Origin: Pedosphaera parvula Ellin514
Lineage (GTDB): Bacteria > Verrucomicrobiota > Verrucomicrobiia > Limisphaerales > Pedosphaeraceae
Length of the DNA stretch: 64,000 nt
Assembly: GCF_000172555.1 (NCBI RefSeq)
Contig: NZ_ABOX02000009.1
Location: forward strand, 1 to 64,000
Direction: 5' to 3'
Of this stretch, positions 3,421-63,138 are shown one piece after another (positions within the stretch are counted from its first letter, which is position 1; each line of letters opens with the position of its first letter). Position numbers and translations under genes: made by a program. Under the pieces are notes generated by a model, which was given only the letters and a program-made list of their open reading frames with translations, had not been told where the DNA came from and ran no database searches.

Positions 3421-3471
3421 GAACAGGTTGTTCCTTGCCAATTAACGGATCTTTGTGTTCTCTATATGCAT

Positions 3472-3540
3472 TGGCAATGGGGTTTGCCTTCTCGGTCAAC
3501 GAGAGAACCGCCTGATTATTTCGGTGCTGATAACTCCTAT
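3472..3540 (+). promoter_or_regulatory. Fluoride riboswitch (crcB motif)
   Basis: All elements of the crcB/fluoride aptamer are visible. The P1 stem is GGCAA (3473-3477) with TTGCC (3484-3488), enclosing the loop TGGGGT. A variable hairpin follows (TTCTC 3489-3493 with GAGAGAA 3501-3507). Then comes a stem ACCG (3507-3510) with CGGT (3522-3525), and the conserved tail GCTGATAACTCCTA (3526-3539). The pseudoknot also forms: GGGGTT (3479-3484) pairs with AACTCC (3532-3537), with one G-U pair. The controlled gene is a CLC-type fluoride exporter, exactly as expected. No U-run terminator follows. A hairpin TTGGTAC/GTACTAA (3540-3562) precedes the leader ORF's ribosome site, so control is probably translational (inference). 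Confidence 0.9.
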
Positions 3541-3573
3541 TGGTACTCAAGTCGTGTACTAACAGGACAACTT

Positions 3574-5665: not shown

Positions 5666-5853
5666 CAGAAGAGGAGATCAGCTTGTTTGTGGAGGGAGCT
5701 TGGGGATGGACAGCTTTGGAGCCCAAGGCGGCACTTGGCGCAAAACCGGAACCGACGGCGATTTGGCTGCGATATCGCGTGCTGGCATTTGTAATGTTGC
5801 CTGGTTCGCGATACTATTGCTTCATTCATGATTTGTGAGCAGATGAGGATGAC

Positions 5854-8759: not shown

Positions 8760-8778
8760 CGTTGTATTGAGCCGGTTA

Positions 8779-11700
8779 CTACGGCATTGAGACGCGGTAG
8801 AACTGAGTTGGATTATTCTGTGCGTTCAGGTCGGTAAAGGTGAACTGGCCGTTAGCGTCGAAAGTGCCAGTTGATACAACCGTCCATTGTGCCAGCGGCA
8901 GGCTGATATCGGTCGTTGCCAGGATGGTGTAGGAGGCATTGGCCGGACCCGTGCCGCTGAATTGGACATTACCATCGCTCAGGTGTGTGACTCCTGAGAG
9001 AGCGAAGGATTGCACCTGAAGAACCGCAATGGAACTGGTCGCAGTGCCAACCGAGTTGGTAACCCGCAAGCTGTAATTACCAGCATCCGAGAGTTGCAGA
9101 TTTGTCAGCGTCAGTGTCACATTGGTAGCTCCTGGTATGCTGGCACCACTCTTCAGCCACTGGTAGGCCAAAGGATCAGAACCATCCACCAGCGCCGAGA
9201 GCTTCACACTCTGGCCACTCAAACCATTGGTGTCTTGAGGTTGAGTATAGAAGACCGGGGCGAGAGTGCTTACAGCCGAATACAGGGTCTGTACTTCGGA
9301 GGGTTGGAGGGCATGGTTGTAGAGACGCACATCGTCAATCTCACCCGTAAATGGCCAGTTGTAGCCGGAGACGGCACTCGATTCCCGGGAACCGATGCTT
9401 ACATCATGAGTGCTGTAGAGGAGTGAGTTTGGACCAGTGATGCTGGTTGCCAGTTGTCCATTGGCATAGAGTTTGAGAAATCCGGTGGAAGCATCAAACG
9501 TGGCAACGAGCAACTGCCAACGACCATTGAGGGCAACGGAACTTTGCGCATTGACCGAGGCTCCATTTGCGCCGCGCACATAGAAGCGGTAGAATCCGCC
9601 GTTGACATCGATGGCGTATTGCTCGGTGCCGCCATAACCCTTGGCAATAATGCCGGCATTATTGACCTGGGTGGCTGGACCCTTGATCCAGGCAGCCACA
9701 GAAAGGGCGAGGGAGTTGGTAAAGTTCAAGCTCGCGCTGTCAGGCACTGTCACATAGGTGAGGCCAGAGCCATCGGCGTTGAAATTCAGGGCGCCGTTCA
9801 CGCGGCCCGCAATCCATTCGGAGTCGTCGCCGGGGAAGTTGATGAGATTTCCCGTGTTGCCATTGCCCGACGAATCGGCCGCGGTGATGTCACTGGTTTC
9901 ATCAAACTTCCACCAGGCGAGAGTATTGGCCAGGGAGAAGGTGGTGACCTGCACCACGGCATTTGAGCTGATGGCGAAACCGGAAGCGTTCGTGACTGCA
10001 AGAGTAAAATTTCCCGCGTCCGATAACTGAAGATTGGTTATCATCAGGCTTGAGTTTGTTGCACCGGGAATGCTGACACCATTGTTTTGCCACTGATAAG
10101 TCAGCGGTGCATCTCCATCCACGAAGGCAGAGAGCGCCAGGTTATCACCGACATATTTCGGAGCGCTCAGAGGTTGAGTGTAGAAGACCGGGGCAAGGCC
10201 GCCGAAGGCATTATAGAGCGTCTGCACATCGGCTGCACTCAGGGCGCGATTGTAGATACGAACGTCATCCATGGCTCCGGCAAATGGGAAGTTGTAACCT
10301 GAGGAAGACGATGACTCGCGGTTTCCAATCGAGACCTCGTGATTGTTATCCACGAGCAGAGTGCCGGGAGCGGCAGTGTTGGAAGCGACCAGCTGGCCGT
10401 TGACGTAAATGCACATGGTGGTGAATCTGCCATCATAGGTGGCCACCAGGTGCTGCCATTGTCCATTAGGGGTGACCTGTGTAGTTACGGTAGTGGACGC
10501 TCCTGCTGCACTTCTCACATAGAACCGGTAGGCCGGAGTGGTGAGTTGGTCCGTGTGAACGTCCAGAGTATACTGTTCGTTAAGCCCACCATAGCCTTTG
10601 GAAATGATGCCAGCGCCACTAACCTGGGCAGCCGATCCTCTTACCCAGGCGGCCAGGGTGAATGTCAGATTGGTGTCGAAGTTCAGGCTGGGGGAATCCG
10701 GTATTGTTGCATACTCGGAAGTGGAGCCGGAATTAAACTGGAGGGCACCATTGATTCGGCCATTCACCCATTCGGAGGTAAAGTCAGGGAAGTTAGCCAA
10801 TGAAGCATTGTTCCCATTGGTCGATGAGTCTGCAGCCATGTAGGAACCGGTGCCATCATCAAACTTCCAGTAACCAGCCAAAGCGTTCGTGACATAGAAA
10901 GCCTGCACCTGGATGTTTGCCACTGAGCTGGTGGCGGCACCATAAGCGTTGGAAACTACCAAGGTATAATCGCCTGCATCCGACAGTTGCAACGGTTGGA
11001 ATATGAGGCTGGTATTGGTCGCGCTGATGAGTTTGGTGCCATTTTTCATCCACTGGTAGGTGAAAGGTGCCGTGCCGCCGGCGGTGCCGGAGAGCTTGAG
11101 ATTATCGCCTGCATAGAGTGAAGCACTCGCGGGCTGGCTGACGAATGAGGGTGGATAAACGCCACCTGTAAGATAGAGCGCCTGCACATCCGAGGACGTT
11201 AAGTCGCGATTGTAAATGCGGACGTCATCGATGATTCCTGTGAAGGGTTGATTGTAGCCTGCATTGCCGCTTTGACGATTGCCGATGCTTACTTCGTGTG
11301 TATTGGCCAGCAACGAGAAGGGAGCAACTGCGACCCCTGCCAATTGCCCGTTGATATAAAGATTCATGATGCCGTTGGTTGCATTCAGAACGGCAGCCAG
11401 GTGTTGCCAGGTATTATTGGGTGATACGGTTGTATTCAGGTTAAAGGAGGTGCCATTGGTGTTGCGGACGTAAAAGCGGTAATGGCCTCCATTCACGTCC
11501 AACGTGTATTGCTCGCCTCCATTACCGCTGCCCTTGGCGATGATGCCGGAACTGTTGGTTTGGAGAGTTGAACCGTTTACCCACGCGGCCAGCGTAAATG
11601 TCGAATTCGTGGAGAAATCAAGCACATCGGGAGCCGGTATGGCGAAGCCGGGTATGAGCATGACATCGGAGCCCGAAGCATCGCCGTTAAATGCCAGGCC

Positions 11701-13137: not shown

Positions 13138-14496
13138 TCATACTCCGCCATCTCCGGGACCGCTGCCGATGCCTCCGTCATTAATGAGGTAAATGATCGG
13201 AAGAAACATGGCAATGACGATCGAGCCGACTACAACCGCAAGGAAAACAATCATCACCGGTTCGATAAGGGACATCAGTGCCGAAACCGAGTTGTCCACT
13301 TCCTCGTCGTAGTTGTCAGCGATTTTATTCAGCATTTCCGGAAGGGCACCCGTTTGTTCACCCACGTCGATCATGCCCACTACCATGACCGGAAAGACGC
13401 TCGCCTGCCGGAGCGGGGCAGCGATGCTTTCGCCATTCTTGACGTTGTCATGAACATGTTCGACCGCGTCACGGAGAATAACATTGCCAGTGGTTTCCTT
13501 GACAATATCGAGCGACTGCAAAATCGGGACACCAGTGGTGGTGAGGGTGCCGAGCGTGCGGGTGAAGCGCGCAATGGCAACCTTGCTGAAGAGAGTGCCC
13601 AGGATAGGCATTTTAAGTTTAAACCTATCGAAGACGTTGCGACCTACTCGGGTGCGAAGGCTGAGAAGCAAAATCCCATAAACTGCGGCGGCGATGGCGG
13701 CTGTAAGTACAAAATGAGAGCGAATGGAGTCGCTTATCCCGAGCACCAGTCGAGTGAACGCGGGGAGTGGTTTGCCATTCATCATGCCTTCGAAAACCGC
13801 TTTGAATTTTGGAATGACATAAAGAAGCATAATTCCCATGACTCCGGTGGCGACGCTGATAACAGCGGCGGGGTAGAACAGGGCGGCGATGACTTTTCTT
13901 TTGATCTTCTCCGTTTTTTCCGTGAAATCCGAGAGTCGCTTCAGCGTGATTTCAAGCGAGCCACTGAGTTCGCCTGCCCTGACCATGCTGAGGTAAAGGT
14001 GGTTGAAGACGCGCGGATGCTGAGCCAGTGCTTCACTGAATGTGCAGCCGCCCTCGATGGATGAACCAACCCCGGTGATGATATTTTTGAAGGAGGGATT
14101 CGTTTCCTGTTCCTCCAGCAGACGCAAACAGCGGAGCAGAGGCATGCCGGCATCGAGCGCAGTGGAAAGCTGGCGTGTGAAAATGCAAAGCTGTTTCGTT
14201 TTTACCCGGGCACGAAGGAAAGGAATTTGGAACTTTGCAAGGAACTCCCGCCTTGATGTGCGCGTGGATGAGATCTGAACCTGATGGTTCACAGACTTGG
14301 AAGTGAGGCCCAAACGTTGAGCATGTCTTCGTGCCCGCTCAGCGGGACTTGATGAGGGCTTCAGTTCAGTTACCCGGGTTGGATAGAAGCCCATTTCCTT
14401 GATTCTTTGAATGGCTTCGTTTTGGTTGGCGACCTGAAGGGTGCCCTTGGTTTCCTTGCCGTGCTGGTCCACGGCTTTATAAGTGAAGGTACTCAT
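13138..14496 (-). CDS. GspF/PilC family inner-membrane protein (type II secretion or type IV pilus)
   Basis: 452 residues from the ATG at 14496, which has AGGAG ten bases upstream; the frame is open further 5' but this start fits the family (MSTFTYKAVDQHGKETKGTL). Two T2SSF domains are visible: about residues 125-250 (FTRQLSTALDAGMPLLRCLRLLEEQE..., GGCTFSEALAQHPRVF..., AGELSGSLEITLKRL) and about 325-440 (FTRTLGTLTTTGVPILQSLDIV..., VGEQTGALPEMLNKIADNYDEEV). Three membrane helices are placed as in GspF/PilC. It is the platform protein of type II secretion or type IV pilus machines. No assembly ATPase or pseudopilin is adjacent. The pilus operon at 32586-39068 lacks such a protein, so this orphan might serve it (inference). 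Confidence 0.9.
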   Translation of the reverse strand: MSTFTYKAVDQHGKETKGTLQVANQNEAIQRIKEMGFYPTRVTELKPSSSPAERARRHAQRLGLTSKSVNHQVQISSTRTSRREFLAKFQIPFLRARVKTKQLCIFTRQLSTALDAGMPLLRCLRLLEEQETNPSFKNIITGVGSSIEGGCTFSEALAQHPRVFNHLYLSMVRAGELSGSLEITLKRLSDFTEKTEKIKRKVIAALFYPAAVISVATGVMGIMLLYVIPKFKAVFEGMMNGKPLPAFTRLVLGISDSIRSHFVLTAAIAAAVYGILLLSLRTRVGRNVFDRFKLKMPILGTLFSKVAIARFTRTLGTLTTTGVPILQSLDIVKETTGNVILRDAVEHVHDNVKNGESIAAPLRQASVFPVMVVGMIDVGEQTGALPEMLNKIADNYDEEVDNSVSALMSLIEPVMIVFLAVVVGSIVIAMFLPIIYLINDGGIGSGPGDGGV

Positions 14497-57067: not shown

Positions 57068-57235
57068 AAAGGGCAATGTTAAATTAGAATTACACTATAG
57101 CCTAAGACGAACACGAGCCCCACAAAATTCGGGGTCGGTTCCCCAACTAAACCAAGAATTCGCCTTCAAGTAAACCGCATAATGAACTCTTCGAGTATTT
57201 CGTGGTTAAAATAAATTCCGTTCATTTTCAGGCTT

Positions 57236-59587: not shown

Positions 59588-59594
59588 GTTAGGC
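59588..59594 (+). repeat. attC-like right box preceding a small gene
   Basis: GTTAGGC fits the GTTRRRY right core of integron attC sites, preceded by TTGAACCTTGG, which resembles TGAACTTGG before the right box at 60788. No matching left box is seen nearby, so it may be a decayed or chance site. Confidence 0.25.
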
Positions 59595-59640
59595 AACCTC
59601 AGTTCAAAAACTTGATAATAAGTGAACCACATTCGCGCGG

Positions 59641-60159
59641 ATGAAAAATAAGCCAACACCAACGAGTCGCCAGTTGCTGATTCGCAAAATTTTCCCGTGG
59701 GCATTGGTTGCGTTTCTATTTCTGTTCGGCCTTGGGGTTGCCTTTCTGTCTTCGTTTTCTGTGATAGCTGCTGTCGTTGCATGGATTGTATTGTTTTCAT
59801 GGGCAGTCTATTCGGTGAGCAGACGCGCTATGCATAAGCAGCGTTCGTTTTTCGAGGTCAGCCGACCGCTATTCAGTTATGTTATTTGCGGAGTTTTGAT
59901 TGCAACAGGGAGCTATCTTCTTTTTGACAGTATTCATGCCATCACACGCGGCAGTATTCACATCGCGATTCACCCCAAGTATTCGAGTATGCGTGGCTCT
60001 GGTGGTATGACCTTTTATCGGGCGGACAATCCGGGCGGATTTTGGGGGTGGGTTTGTGGTGATTGCTACTTTGCCCTGGTGTTCTTTTACATTGCCATCA
60101 TAGAGGTCATTATTACCCTCAAACAACGTAATCATGTTAAACATAAACCTGTGGCCTAA
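59641..60159 (+). CDS. Small membrane protein, unknown family
   Basis: 172 residues with four hydrophobic helices (IFPWALVAFLFLFGLGVAFLSSFSVIAAVVAWIVLFSWAVY, LFSYVICGVLIATGSYLLF, CYFALVFFYIAIIEVIITL) and a polar loop between. No family recognised. Its TAA stop sits inside an attC-like left box (GCCTAAC, 60154-60160), the position expected if it were an integron cassette gene. Function unknown. Confidence 0.6.
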   Translation: MKNKPTPTSRQLLIRKIFPWALVAFLFLFGLGVAFLSSFSVIAAVVAWIVLFSWAVYSVSRRAMHKQRSFFEVSRPLFSYVICGVLIATGSYLLFDSIHAITRGSIHIAIHPKYSSMRGSGGMTFYRADNPGGFWGWVCGDCYFALVFFYIAIIEVIITLKQRNHVKHKPVA

Positions 60160-60182
60160 CCACGCGGCCGCAACGGACACTC
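60154..60182 (+). repeat. attC-like left-box repeat, copy A
   Basis: GCCTAACCACGCGGCCGC, AACGGACACTCG closely matches ACCTAACCATGGGCCGCAAC, GAACTCG at 60700. GCCTAAC fits the RYYYAAC left core of attC. No matching right box follows before the next gene, so this copy is incomplete. Confidence 0.4.
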
Positions 60183-60359
60183 GCGCAGGTTGCGAGCGAC
60201 CACGCACATGACCTCTCAGAATTCAAAGAAGCGCGGAAGAAGTTCTAGAACAATATTGGTCCCGGGGCTTTGGCGATGCTTTACGGCCTATACAATTTTG
60301 GCATTGTCGCATTTCCACGCGACTCCAATATAAATCCGGCATCCAACACCTCACAAAAT

Positions 60360-60692
60360 ATGAAATTAAAACTTACAGTCGCACTGACATTGGCCGTGGC
60401 GCTTCTTTATGGCTGCGCCAAACCATCAGCTCCAACGACCAACCTCGGAGCCGTCGAAGTCGCGACCACTAAGCTGACACGTCATTATCCTTTGAGCGGA
60501 GACCGGGATTGCACGCTCACTTTGACCACTCTCATAGATGGACAGGTTCTGGTTGAAGCAGTGGTGTTGCGTAAAGATGCCCAAGGCAATGTAACGGTAT
60601 TGGCGCGGCCCCGCAAAAAAGCCCCTTTCGGACAGGAAGTCAGTCTGCCAATAGGAGATGGAAATATCGTGTTGACGCCTAAGCGAATATGA
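60360..60692 (+). CDS. Predicted lipoprotein
   Basis: 110 residues from the ATG at 60360, giving a lipoprotein signal MKLKLTVALTLAVALLYGC (Cys 19). The mature part (AVEVATTKLTRHYPLSGDRDCTLTLTTLIDGQVLVEAVVLRKDAQGNVTVLARPRKKAPFGQEVSLPIGDGNIVLTPKRI) is beta-rich and not a family I know. The attC-like site at 60700 begins eight bases after its stop. Confidence 0.65.
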   Translation: MKLKLTVALTLAVALLYGCAKPSAPTTNLGAVEVATTKLTRHYPLSGDRDCTLTLTTLIDGQVLVEAVVLRKDAQGNVTVLARPRKKAPFGQEVSLPIGDGNIVLTPKRI

Positions 60693-60699
60693 CCACGCC

Positions 60700-60794
60700 A
60701 CCTAACCATGGGCCGCAACGAACTCGTTGCCATCATGCTCCGGTTCCAATCCATGCCTCCCCGCGGACCGTCTCGCTGAACTTGGATGTTAGGT
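60700..60794 (+). repeat. attC-like recombination site, best copy
   Basis: The left box ACCTAAC (60700-60706; RYYYAAC) and right box GTTAGGT (60788-60794; GTTRRRY) lie within a 10-bp inverted repeat, GCCACCTAAC and GTTAGGTGGC, 95 bases apart overall, within the usual attC size. The next gene's ATG at 60803 is only nine bases past the right box, as in integron cassettes. The inner boxes are not clearly complementary, so the call needs a structure search. Confidence 0.5.
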
Positions 60795-60802
60795 GGCAGC
60801 CG

Positions 60803-61165
60803 ATGCGTCTCGTGCCTTCAACAATTTTGGTTCTCGCTCTGGTGGGTTGCTCAACCAGCGAGCGAGGCGACATCATTGATCTGAGAGACACACCTTCACC
60901 AGACGGGCGTTACGTTTGCACTGTGTTTGGCGAGACTTTCTACAACACGACGGGATACGCTCAGCACATTTACTTGCGTCGATCCGGGGAGCAGCGCGGC
61001 TACCCAGGCAATGTTTACGTCGTGCCGGTCGGAGATGACGTGGCGGTTTCGTGGACATCACCCACCAATCTTTTGGTGAGATTAAGCTTTGAGACGCGGC
61101 GTACTATCCCGGCGGTGACAAACGTCGCAGGAGTGACTGTCACTTATTCAGAGATGACCAAATGA
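60803..61165 (+). CDS. Predicted lipoprotein in attC-like context
   Basis: 120 residues from the ATG at 60803, chosen for its lipoprotein signal MRLVPSTILVLALVGC (Cys 16). The mature part (IIDLRDTPSPDGRYVCTVFGETFYNTTGYAQHIYLRRSGEQRGYPGNVYVVPVGDDVAVSWTSPTNLLVRLSFETRRTIPAV) resembles small single-domain lipoproteins with a repeated Tyr/Val strand pattern, but no named family. It sits between two attC-like sites. The TGA stop lies about eight bases before the next left box. Confidence 0.65.
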   Translation: MRLVPSTILVLALVGCSTSERGDIIDLRDTPSPDGRYVCTVFGETFYNTTGYAQHIYLRRSGEQRGYPGNVYVVPVGDDVAVSWTSPTNLLVRLSFETRRTIPAVTNVAGVTVTYSEMTK

Positions 61166-61172
61166 CCTGGCC

Positions 61173-61222
61173 ACTTAACCATGCACCGAAGCGCCCCCGG
61201 ACGCTCTATGCCTGACCTTGGA
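61173..61222 (+). repeat. attC-like repeat, copy C
   Basis: ACTTAAC (61173-61179) fits RYYYAAC and is followed by CATGCACCG, as CATGGGCCG follows copy B. At its far end CTGACCTTGGAC parallels CTGAACTTGGAT just before the right box of copy B, but GTTRRRY itself is replaced here by AGTACAC. A decayed copy is likely. Confidence 0.35.
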
Positions 61223-61239
61223 CAGTACACGGTTCGAGC

Positions 61240-61578
61240 ATGAAGGCTCCATATTGCTTAAGCGACTATTCAATTTCCGAACTCATCAACCTCTTGATAA
61301 CTGCGCGTGCTGAACGGGCTCGGTTAGAGGTTGGTTATCCGGCGACTCTAATCGTTAAAAGCCGCGAAATCGAAATTGAAGGGCCAGCCGTTACTCCCGA
61401 AGCCATAGCAGAATTGGTTCGCAGTGTCGCGTGCACAAGGCAGATTAGAAATCTAAGGAAGTATGGCACGATCGAGGCTATCTACACTTTCAAAGGCTCT
61501 CGATTTCTGGTTCGTGCTGTTGATGCATTTGGTGATTGTCGATTGGATTTACAACCTGTCGTAGCGCTGATAAATTAG
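61240..61578 (+). CDS. Small protein of unknown family
   Basis: 112 residues beginning MKAPYCLSDYSISELINLLITARAERARLEVGYPATLIVKSREIEIEGPAVTPEAIAELVRSVACTRQIRNLRKYGTIEAIYTFKGSRFLVRAVDAFGDCRLDLQPV. The pattern (a helical start, a strand pair, a helix, strands) suggests a small alpha/beta domain; I cannot name it. It follows the attC-like copy C by 17 bases and may be another cassette gene. Confidence 0.55.
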   Translation: MKAPYCLSDYSISELINLLITARAERARLEVGYPATLIVKSREIEIEGPAVTPEAIAELVRSVACTRQIRNLRKYGTIEAIYTFKGSRFLVRAVDAFGDCRLDLQPVVALIN

Positions 61579-61784
61579 CGCGTCATGGTCGAATGGTACA
61601 ACGAAAGTGTATGCTGATTTCTCGGCCATGAGCTGCAGACAACAGCCGGGCCGCCGGACGGTTCGAATGAATTTCAGCATGGCGGTTCGCGTGGGAGCCC
61701 GTCCCCGGCGGTCGACGCTGAGCTTGATCGTCACGCGGCTCGCACGCATATCCAGTTCCGAATGTCGAAATTCAAAACAACGCT

Positions 61785-62246: not shown

Positions 62247-62318
62247 AATTCTCCCCCTTCGCTCAATAACTCCCATCATCCTCCACCACCGCATCGAAGG
62301 GACGCGGCCCATCCTTAA
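62247..62318. repeat. Dispersed repeat, copy 2 (CCTTCG...CGAAGGG type)
   Basis: Second copy of the element at 59351: CCCCCTTCGCTCAATAACTC, CATCATCCTCCACCACCG, CGAAGGGACGCGGCCC and CCTTAA align without gaps to the first. It begins at the VOC gene's stop and runs to the cheB-like gene's stop. Confidence 0.5.
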
Positions 62319-62938
62319 CAAATCAGTTCGTTTATCTCGCGCGAAGCATCCTTTCCTGGAACCAGGGTCATTAACCGGGGTGCAATCTCCGTGATAGGAA
62401 GAACAAAATCCACCGCTCCAGTATGAATCGCCGACTTGGGCATGCTAAAATGCAGTGAAGTAGCTTTGTCCTGGGTGATGACTCGGCCTCCATGCGCCTT
62501 GATGGCTTGCACTCCTGTCGCGCCATCTGAATCCGAGCCGCTCAGCACTACCCCGATGACCCTTTCCTTGTAAACCTCTGCTGCGGACATAAATAGGGGT
62601 TCCGCGGCGGGACGGGTAAAACGGATTTTTTTTCCTTTAAAGAGGTTCAATGTGCCGCTTTCGCAGACTCGAACATGCCAGTCGGGAGGTGCAACGTAGA
62701 CCGTGGAACATTGCATGAGGTCACCCTCTGCAGCCCATTTGACGTCCAACAATGAACGCTGGTTTAGAATTTCGGCAAGCTTGCTGGTGAAATGCGGGGA
62801 AAGATGCATCACGACGGCGATGGCCGCCGGAAAGTCCTCCGGCAACGAATCAAGAATATGGCTTAATCCGTGAAGGCCGCCTGCGGAGGCAGCTATTGTT
62901 ACCACCCACTGCGCCGGTCGTGATTTGAAATTAGACAT
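62315..62938 (-). CDS. Stand-alone CheB methylesterase domain
   Basis: 207 residues from the ATG at 62938: only the CheB catalytic domain, with no receiver domain. The catalytic triad is visible as Ser18 (TIAASAGGLHG), His45 (AAIAVVMHLSPH) and Asp138 (SGSDSDGATG). The substrate-pocket segments STVYVAPPDWHV and FMSAAEVYKERVIGVVLSGSDSDGATGVQAIKAHGGRVITQDKATSLHFSMPKSAIHTGAVDFVLPITEI fit. CheB removes methyl groups from chemoreceptors, but no chemotaxis gene is near it. Such orphan CheB domains may have other substrates. Confidence 0.9.
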   Translation of the reverse strand: MSNFKSRPAQWVVTIAASAGGLHGLSHILDSLPEDFPAAIAVVMHLSPHFTSKLAEILNQRSLLDVKWAAEGDLMQCSTVYVAPPDWHVRVCESGTLNLFKGKKIRFTRPAAEPLFMSAAEVYKERVIGVVLSGSDSDGATGVQAIKAHGGRVITQDKATSLHFSMPKSAIHTGAVDFVLPITEIAPRLMTLVPGKDASREINELIC

Positions 62939-63138
62939 AATTAAAGTTCGTTCTTCAGGAAAAAACCGCAATTGGGAATTATAACCAGGCTCCGCGACGA
63001 CACGCCTTACGAAGACAAAACCATCTCACAAACTCGCTGTGGCTAAATCACTTTGACTTCGCATCCGATTCCTCCCTAAGCTGCGCTTGCGGAACAGGTC
63101 AATATTTTGATGCCGATGAATCCTCAAGTAAAACTACC

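Follow-up and report, generated by a model that had tools for sequence, protein, structure and literature searches.

Why do the spacers between four small genes on the same strand carry boxes reminiscent of recombination sites? The question is raised by positions 59.6–61.74 kb of the window, as we call the whole 64-kb stretch of DNA that was analysed. It is the start of contig C9 (NZ_ABOX02000009.1) of the Pedosphaera parvula Ellin514 genome, a draft of 7.4 Mb in 102 contigs with a completeness of 95.9%. Integrons are gene-collecting systems of bacteria, in which an integrase, IntI, captures cassettes via folded attC sites. With high confidence, we consider the region as the remnant of an array of four such cassettes (gene 1–A, gene 2–B, gene 3–C and gene 4–D), which is now best described as a degraded CALIN (cluster of attC sites lacking an integron-integrase; PMC9024848, the paper on IntegronFinder 2.0), without an integrase next to it. 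This view results from the agreement of three lines of evidence: the family to which the sites belong, the remains found spacer by spacer and the cassette homologs in other genomes. The features are, in order:

59588–59594, + strand: possible R' half-box GTTAGGC opening cassette 1; weak; complementary in 7/7 positions to the R'' box GCCTAAC of site A
59641–60159, + strand: gene 1, an open frame for a predicted membrane protein of 172 amino acids
60154–60198, + strand: site A, a decayed attC; R''-spacer-L'' and the centre are kept, the 3' half is lost
60360–60692, + strand: gene 2, a predicted lipoprotein of 110 amino acids (signal ...ALLYGC)
60700–60794, + strand: site B, a complete attC by covariance models, profile HMM and box geometry
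60803–61165, + strand: gene 3, a predicted lipoprotein of 120 amino acids (signal ...LALVGC)
61173–61230, + strand: site C, a decayed and shortened attC; the R''/L'' half and CTGACCTTGGA are kept, R' is lost
61240–61578, + strand: gene 4, a stand-alone domain of 112 amino acids resembling the N-terminus of PilT ATPases
61626–61736, + strand: site D, a decayed attC 3' of gene 4; both halves are recognisable, the core boxes are lost

Site B is an attC. Its anatomy agrees box for box with that of bona fide attC sites: R'' (ACCTAAC), a 9-nt spacer and L'' (CAACGA) with an extrahelical A are followed by L' (TCGCTG), another 9-nt spacer and R' (GTTAGGT). The R'' and R' ends, ACCTAAC and GTTAGGT, are complementary in 7/7 positions. 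As had been proposed, GTTAGGT closes a span of 95 bases inside a perfect 10-bp inverted repeat, GCCACCTAAC / GTTAGGTGGC, and an ATG, that of gene 3, lies past the site at 60803. The L''/L' stem (CAACGA-A- / TCGCTG) is present but weakened. It forms five of six pairs with the extrahelical base on the L'' side, while the stem past L is largely broken; the next six positions keep three pairs, which makes 8/12 inner pairs overall.

Two covariance models were built within the analysis, and site B was left out of both. R1 was derived from 16 attC sites of integron loci of the phylum and of contig C15 of the source genome, R2 from 11 sites of a single attC family on other contigs of the source genome. 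The R2 sites show changes paired on both sides in 20 cells, as compared to 9.7 in shuffles, and a covariation score of 0.271 versus 0.114. A recombination site that folds is expected to show such paired changes; the R2 sites are, however, mutually related, and their covariation is therefore support, not proof. Site B passes with either model. With R2 it reaches 43.8 bits (E 1.8e-10 in the window, 2.1e-8 in the whole genome), with the cross-phylum model R1 20.8 bits over its full length (E 0.0026); R1 has no other match in the 64 kb, even when E values up to 10 are admitted. The signal is mostly one of sequence, since a plain profile HMM already yields an E value of 1.4e-9. Folding of the bottom strand is only moderately better than that of shuffles (z −1.6; 12/200 as good), and none of 500 shuffles aligned to the consensus as well as the spacer of B. 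A pattern search of the genome with the right half of B matched B alone; the conclusion that B is unique in the genome is contradicted by the attC model.

The other three sites have suffered. In each of A, C and D, one or both of the R''/R' ends are missing. RYYYAAC boxes are indeed located at 60154 (GCCTAAC), 60700 (ACCTAAC) and 61173 (ACTTAAC), in every case at the stop of a + strand gene or just past it, A and B have CCTAACCA..GGCCGCAACG in common, and CTGA.CTTGGA recurs, all as originally predicted. The prediction had thus listed A, B and C correctly, A and C being decayed, but had missed D (61626–61736). A weight matrix for the 5' half, derived from attC sites of the genome itself, places B first, A second and C fourth among about 64,000 positions of the + strand; no position on the − strand attains the score of C. 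The corresponding matrix for the 3' half ranks D first and B second in the window. The family consensus aligned to spacers A and C better than to any of 500 shuffles each, and to spacer D from position 7 to 93, where 1/500 shuffles was as good. Four neighbouring spacers showed no attC likeness in the same comparison, with 47 to 290 of 500 shuffles as good. Since the alignments of A to D beat the shuffles and those of the neighbours do not, an attC, or what is left of one, stands behind every one of the four genes, always in the orientation of the gene.

Of course, a motif as short as RYYYAAC is common on its own, and four unrelated small genes could carry such boxes by coincidence. This reading is refuted and deserves practically no credence: B has an E value of 1.8e-10, A and C are top-ranked, all four spacers are matched and three of the genes have homologs in cassettes. 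Two further candidates are of a different kind. The half-box GTTAGGC at 59588, 46 bases 5' of the start of gene 1, could not be confirmed as part of an attC, the spacer around it showing no similarity to the attC family (202/500 shuffles as good). A match of the 5' half at 60417 falls within gene 2 and is taken as chance.

The genes themselves are small, and none of the four reading frames has been interrupted. They had been described as mostly lipoproteins. This holds for genes 2 and 3, which have lipoprotein-like signals, but not for the predicted membrane protein of gene 1 and the PilT-N-like domain of gene 4, which is 30% identical over 99 amino acids to the N-terminus of a PilT-family protein of TIGR01420. 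Gene 1 has no Pfam match over the cut-off, no NCBIfam match and no homolog among 320 genomes of the order, so that its status as a cassette derives solely from site A and its position. The predicted structure of gene 3 is all-beta with a mean pLDDT of 61.7, which is too uncertain for a structure search. A comparison of gene 3 with its homolog in genome G467 gave a dN/dS of 0.09 at a dS of about 1.6, which is near saturation; the ratio is therefore a rough sign only of purifying selection on the family. A search of the genome contigs with genes 1–4 joined, by means of six peptide patterns, produced no match; as a later whole-genome search did find relatives, this outcome reflects the six patterns.

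Do these genes travel as cassettes elsewhere? Homologs of genes 2, 3 and 4 stand right next to attC sites in other genomes of the order, those of gene 1 do not; looking for the same genes beside attC sites, a check that had been suggested, was thus successful for three of the four. The best case is gene 3 in a genome of the same order (G295; contig C6, locus L048), where a homolog with 49% identity (E 1.9e-23) sits between one attC at 10948–11046 and another at 11435–11527. It starts 6 bases past the former; 37 bases separate the end of its matched part from the latter, which scores 87.8 bits with the R2 model of the source genome. This array begins about 440 bases from an intact IntI (418 bits; cut-off 265). 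Homologs of gene 2 lie between attC sites in two genomes (G512 and G597) and directly adjoin attC in G476 and, on two contigs, in G504. For gene 4, a homolog is found between two attC sites in G468. Other gene 3 homologs occur in G467 (77%), G602 (63%) and G513 (35%), and the closest ones, in G467 and G602, have no attC alongside. A direct repeat of about 50–60 bases stands on either side of the G467 homolog (L178:9800-10600). The original prediction was to be given up if no site passed an attC covariance model and if the genes lacked mobility among relatives; both possibilities were tested, and neither came true.

The attC family is by no means confined to the window. The source genome contains about 30 attC sites over about ten contigs; apart from C9, the sites, which form several arrays, are found on C15, C34, C36, C13, C46, C35, C66, C56 and C21 (L068, L120–L127), and C15 alone has ten sites, in both orientations, at 70961–83625. 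Another genome of the same family (G530) has 54 sites of the R2 type over many contigs (loci L210, L218 and L223); within this family, 26 were also counted in G533, 9 in G458 and none in G408. Such scattering over many contigs, in the source genome as in G530, might suggest that the sites are palindromic repeats dispersed through the genomes of this bacterial family, which resemble attC by accident and have nothing to do with integrase action. The G295 array largely refutes this idea, and we regard it as very improbable: a site of the same family, the one with 87.8 bits, belongs to an array that directly follows an intact integron integrase. The sites, moreover, are mostly arranged in arrays with gene-sized gaps, and their boxes, 9-nt spacer and extrahelical base agree with those of attC.

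The integrase is a different matter. Integron integrases above the curated cut-off were detected in 107/387 genomes sampled from the phylum, and integrons have been reported from Verrucomicrobiota (PMC8618304). In the window and in the assembly, no complete integron integrase was found (no TIGR02249 match over the cut-off). Shards of integron integrase are present on C15 and C22; the search thus agrees with the designation of the locus as an orphan attC cluster. Short integrase pieces around FLTALAQNxVxASTQNQAFNAILFFY are repeated in several locations of the genome (L068:5960-6238, 8766-8864 and 14040-14159; L070:4387-4455 and 5705-5830; L069:6442-6540). They look as if several integrons had decayed.

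Alternatively, the array could be dormant instead of dead, with B being recombinable and a complete integrase either lying outside the assembled sequence or coming from another source. Both core boxes are kept in B, the draft consists of 102 contigs with a completeness of 95.9% and some attC arrays near contig ends, and complete integrases with integrons of the same attC type exist in the order. The source genome, however, offers nothing but shards of integrase, sites A, C and D lack core boxes, and the same family showed only a split integrase gene, that of G530, which lies in two pieces on C93 and C95. Dormancy is unlikely. The array of four cassettes is probably immobile, as there is no adjacent integrase, three sites are damaged and the stem of B is weakened; the loss of core boxes and of a complete integrase suggests as much.

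According to the known mechanism of integrons, each gene would have arrived as a circle, which IntI inserted by recombination at the bottom strand of the folded attC. Today no integrase adjoins the array, and in three of the four attC sites a core box or an entire half is gone. What is left is a probably immobile array with its reading frames retained. Capture by IntI, loss of mobility and retention of the genes by selection are events of the past that we infer. CALINs may originate from off-target insertion, from the loss of intI or from rearrangement (PMC8618304). The integrase shards favour loss of intI, while the scattered arrays leave room for the other origins.

Only one genome of the same genus (G534) was seen. 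There, the homologies to position 57136 of the window and to position 66423 of C9 lie 50 bases apart, which means that a 9.3-kb block with the array (57137 to C9:66422) is missing. Part of the block, from 63138 onward, with a gene resembling D-threonine aldolase/alanine racemase, is found on another contig of that genome. As the block includes non-cassette genes, the difference is not a clean one at the level of cassettes; the comparison shows a variable region, not the insertion of cassettes. A CheB-like gene at 62315–62971, considered as a synteny marker, has no close ortholog in the relatives.

How does the locus compare with known systems? Like a CALIN (PMC9024848), it has small genes on the same strand, attC sites between them and no integrase nearby. 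The default of IntegronFinder 2.0, however, demands at least two attC sites, whereas a scan of the window with the models used here reports a single one, because only one of the four passes the covariance models; the other three are recognisable by sequence only. The chromosomal integron of G295 shares with the window the attC family, a homologous gene 3 cassette and the bacterial order, but its IntI and its attC sites are intact, while the window has one near-complete site and no integrase. An IntI gene with attI adjoining the array, which would make a complete integron, is not found in the window. CALINs are already known; the array is a new and strongly decayed member of this class. Less ordinary, and more interesting, is how many separate arrays this family has. 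Integron arrays may have been scattered into about ten or more chromosomal places per genome and may then have lost their integrases, cassette genes like genes 1–4 ending up fixed as ordinary genes. Integrons would thus have turned into resident genes throughout this lineage of Verrucomicrobiota, a tentative view that we hold with more doubt than conviction.

Some implications go beyond the locus. An attC model specific for a genome, combined with a search for cassette homologs, recovers integron remnants that are too decayed for a scan with covariance models. Three uncharacterised families of small proteins, two of lipoproteins and one with a PilT-N-like domain, become tied to the cassette pool of Verrucomicrobiota. 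Cassette genes that survive their recombination sites also offer a direct route to asking which captured genes a host keeps. A search of a plasmid collection gave no match. The Rfam scan of the window reported no attC family; its sole report was a fluoride riboswitch at 3464–3546 (RF01734, 44.1 bits).
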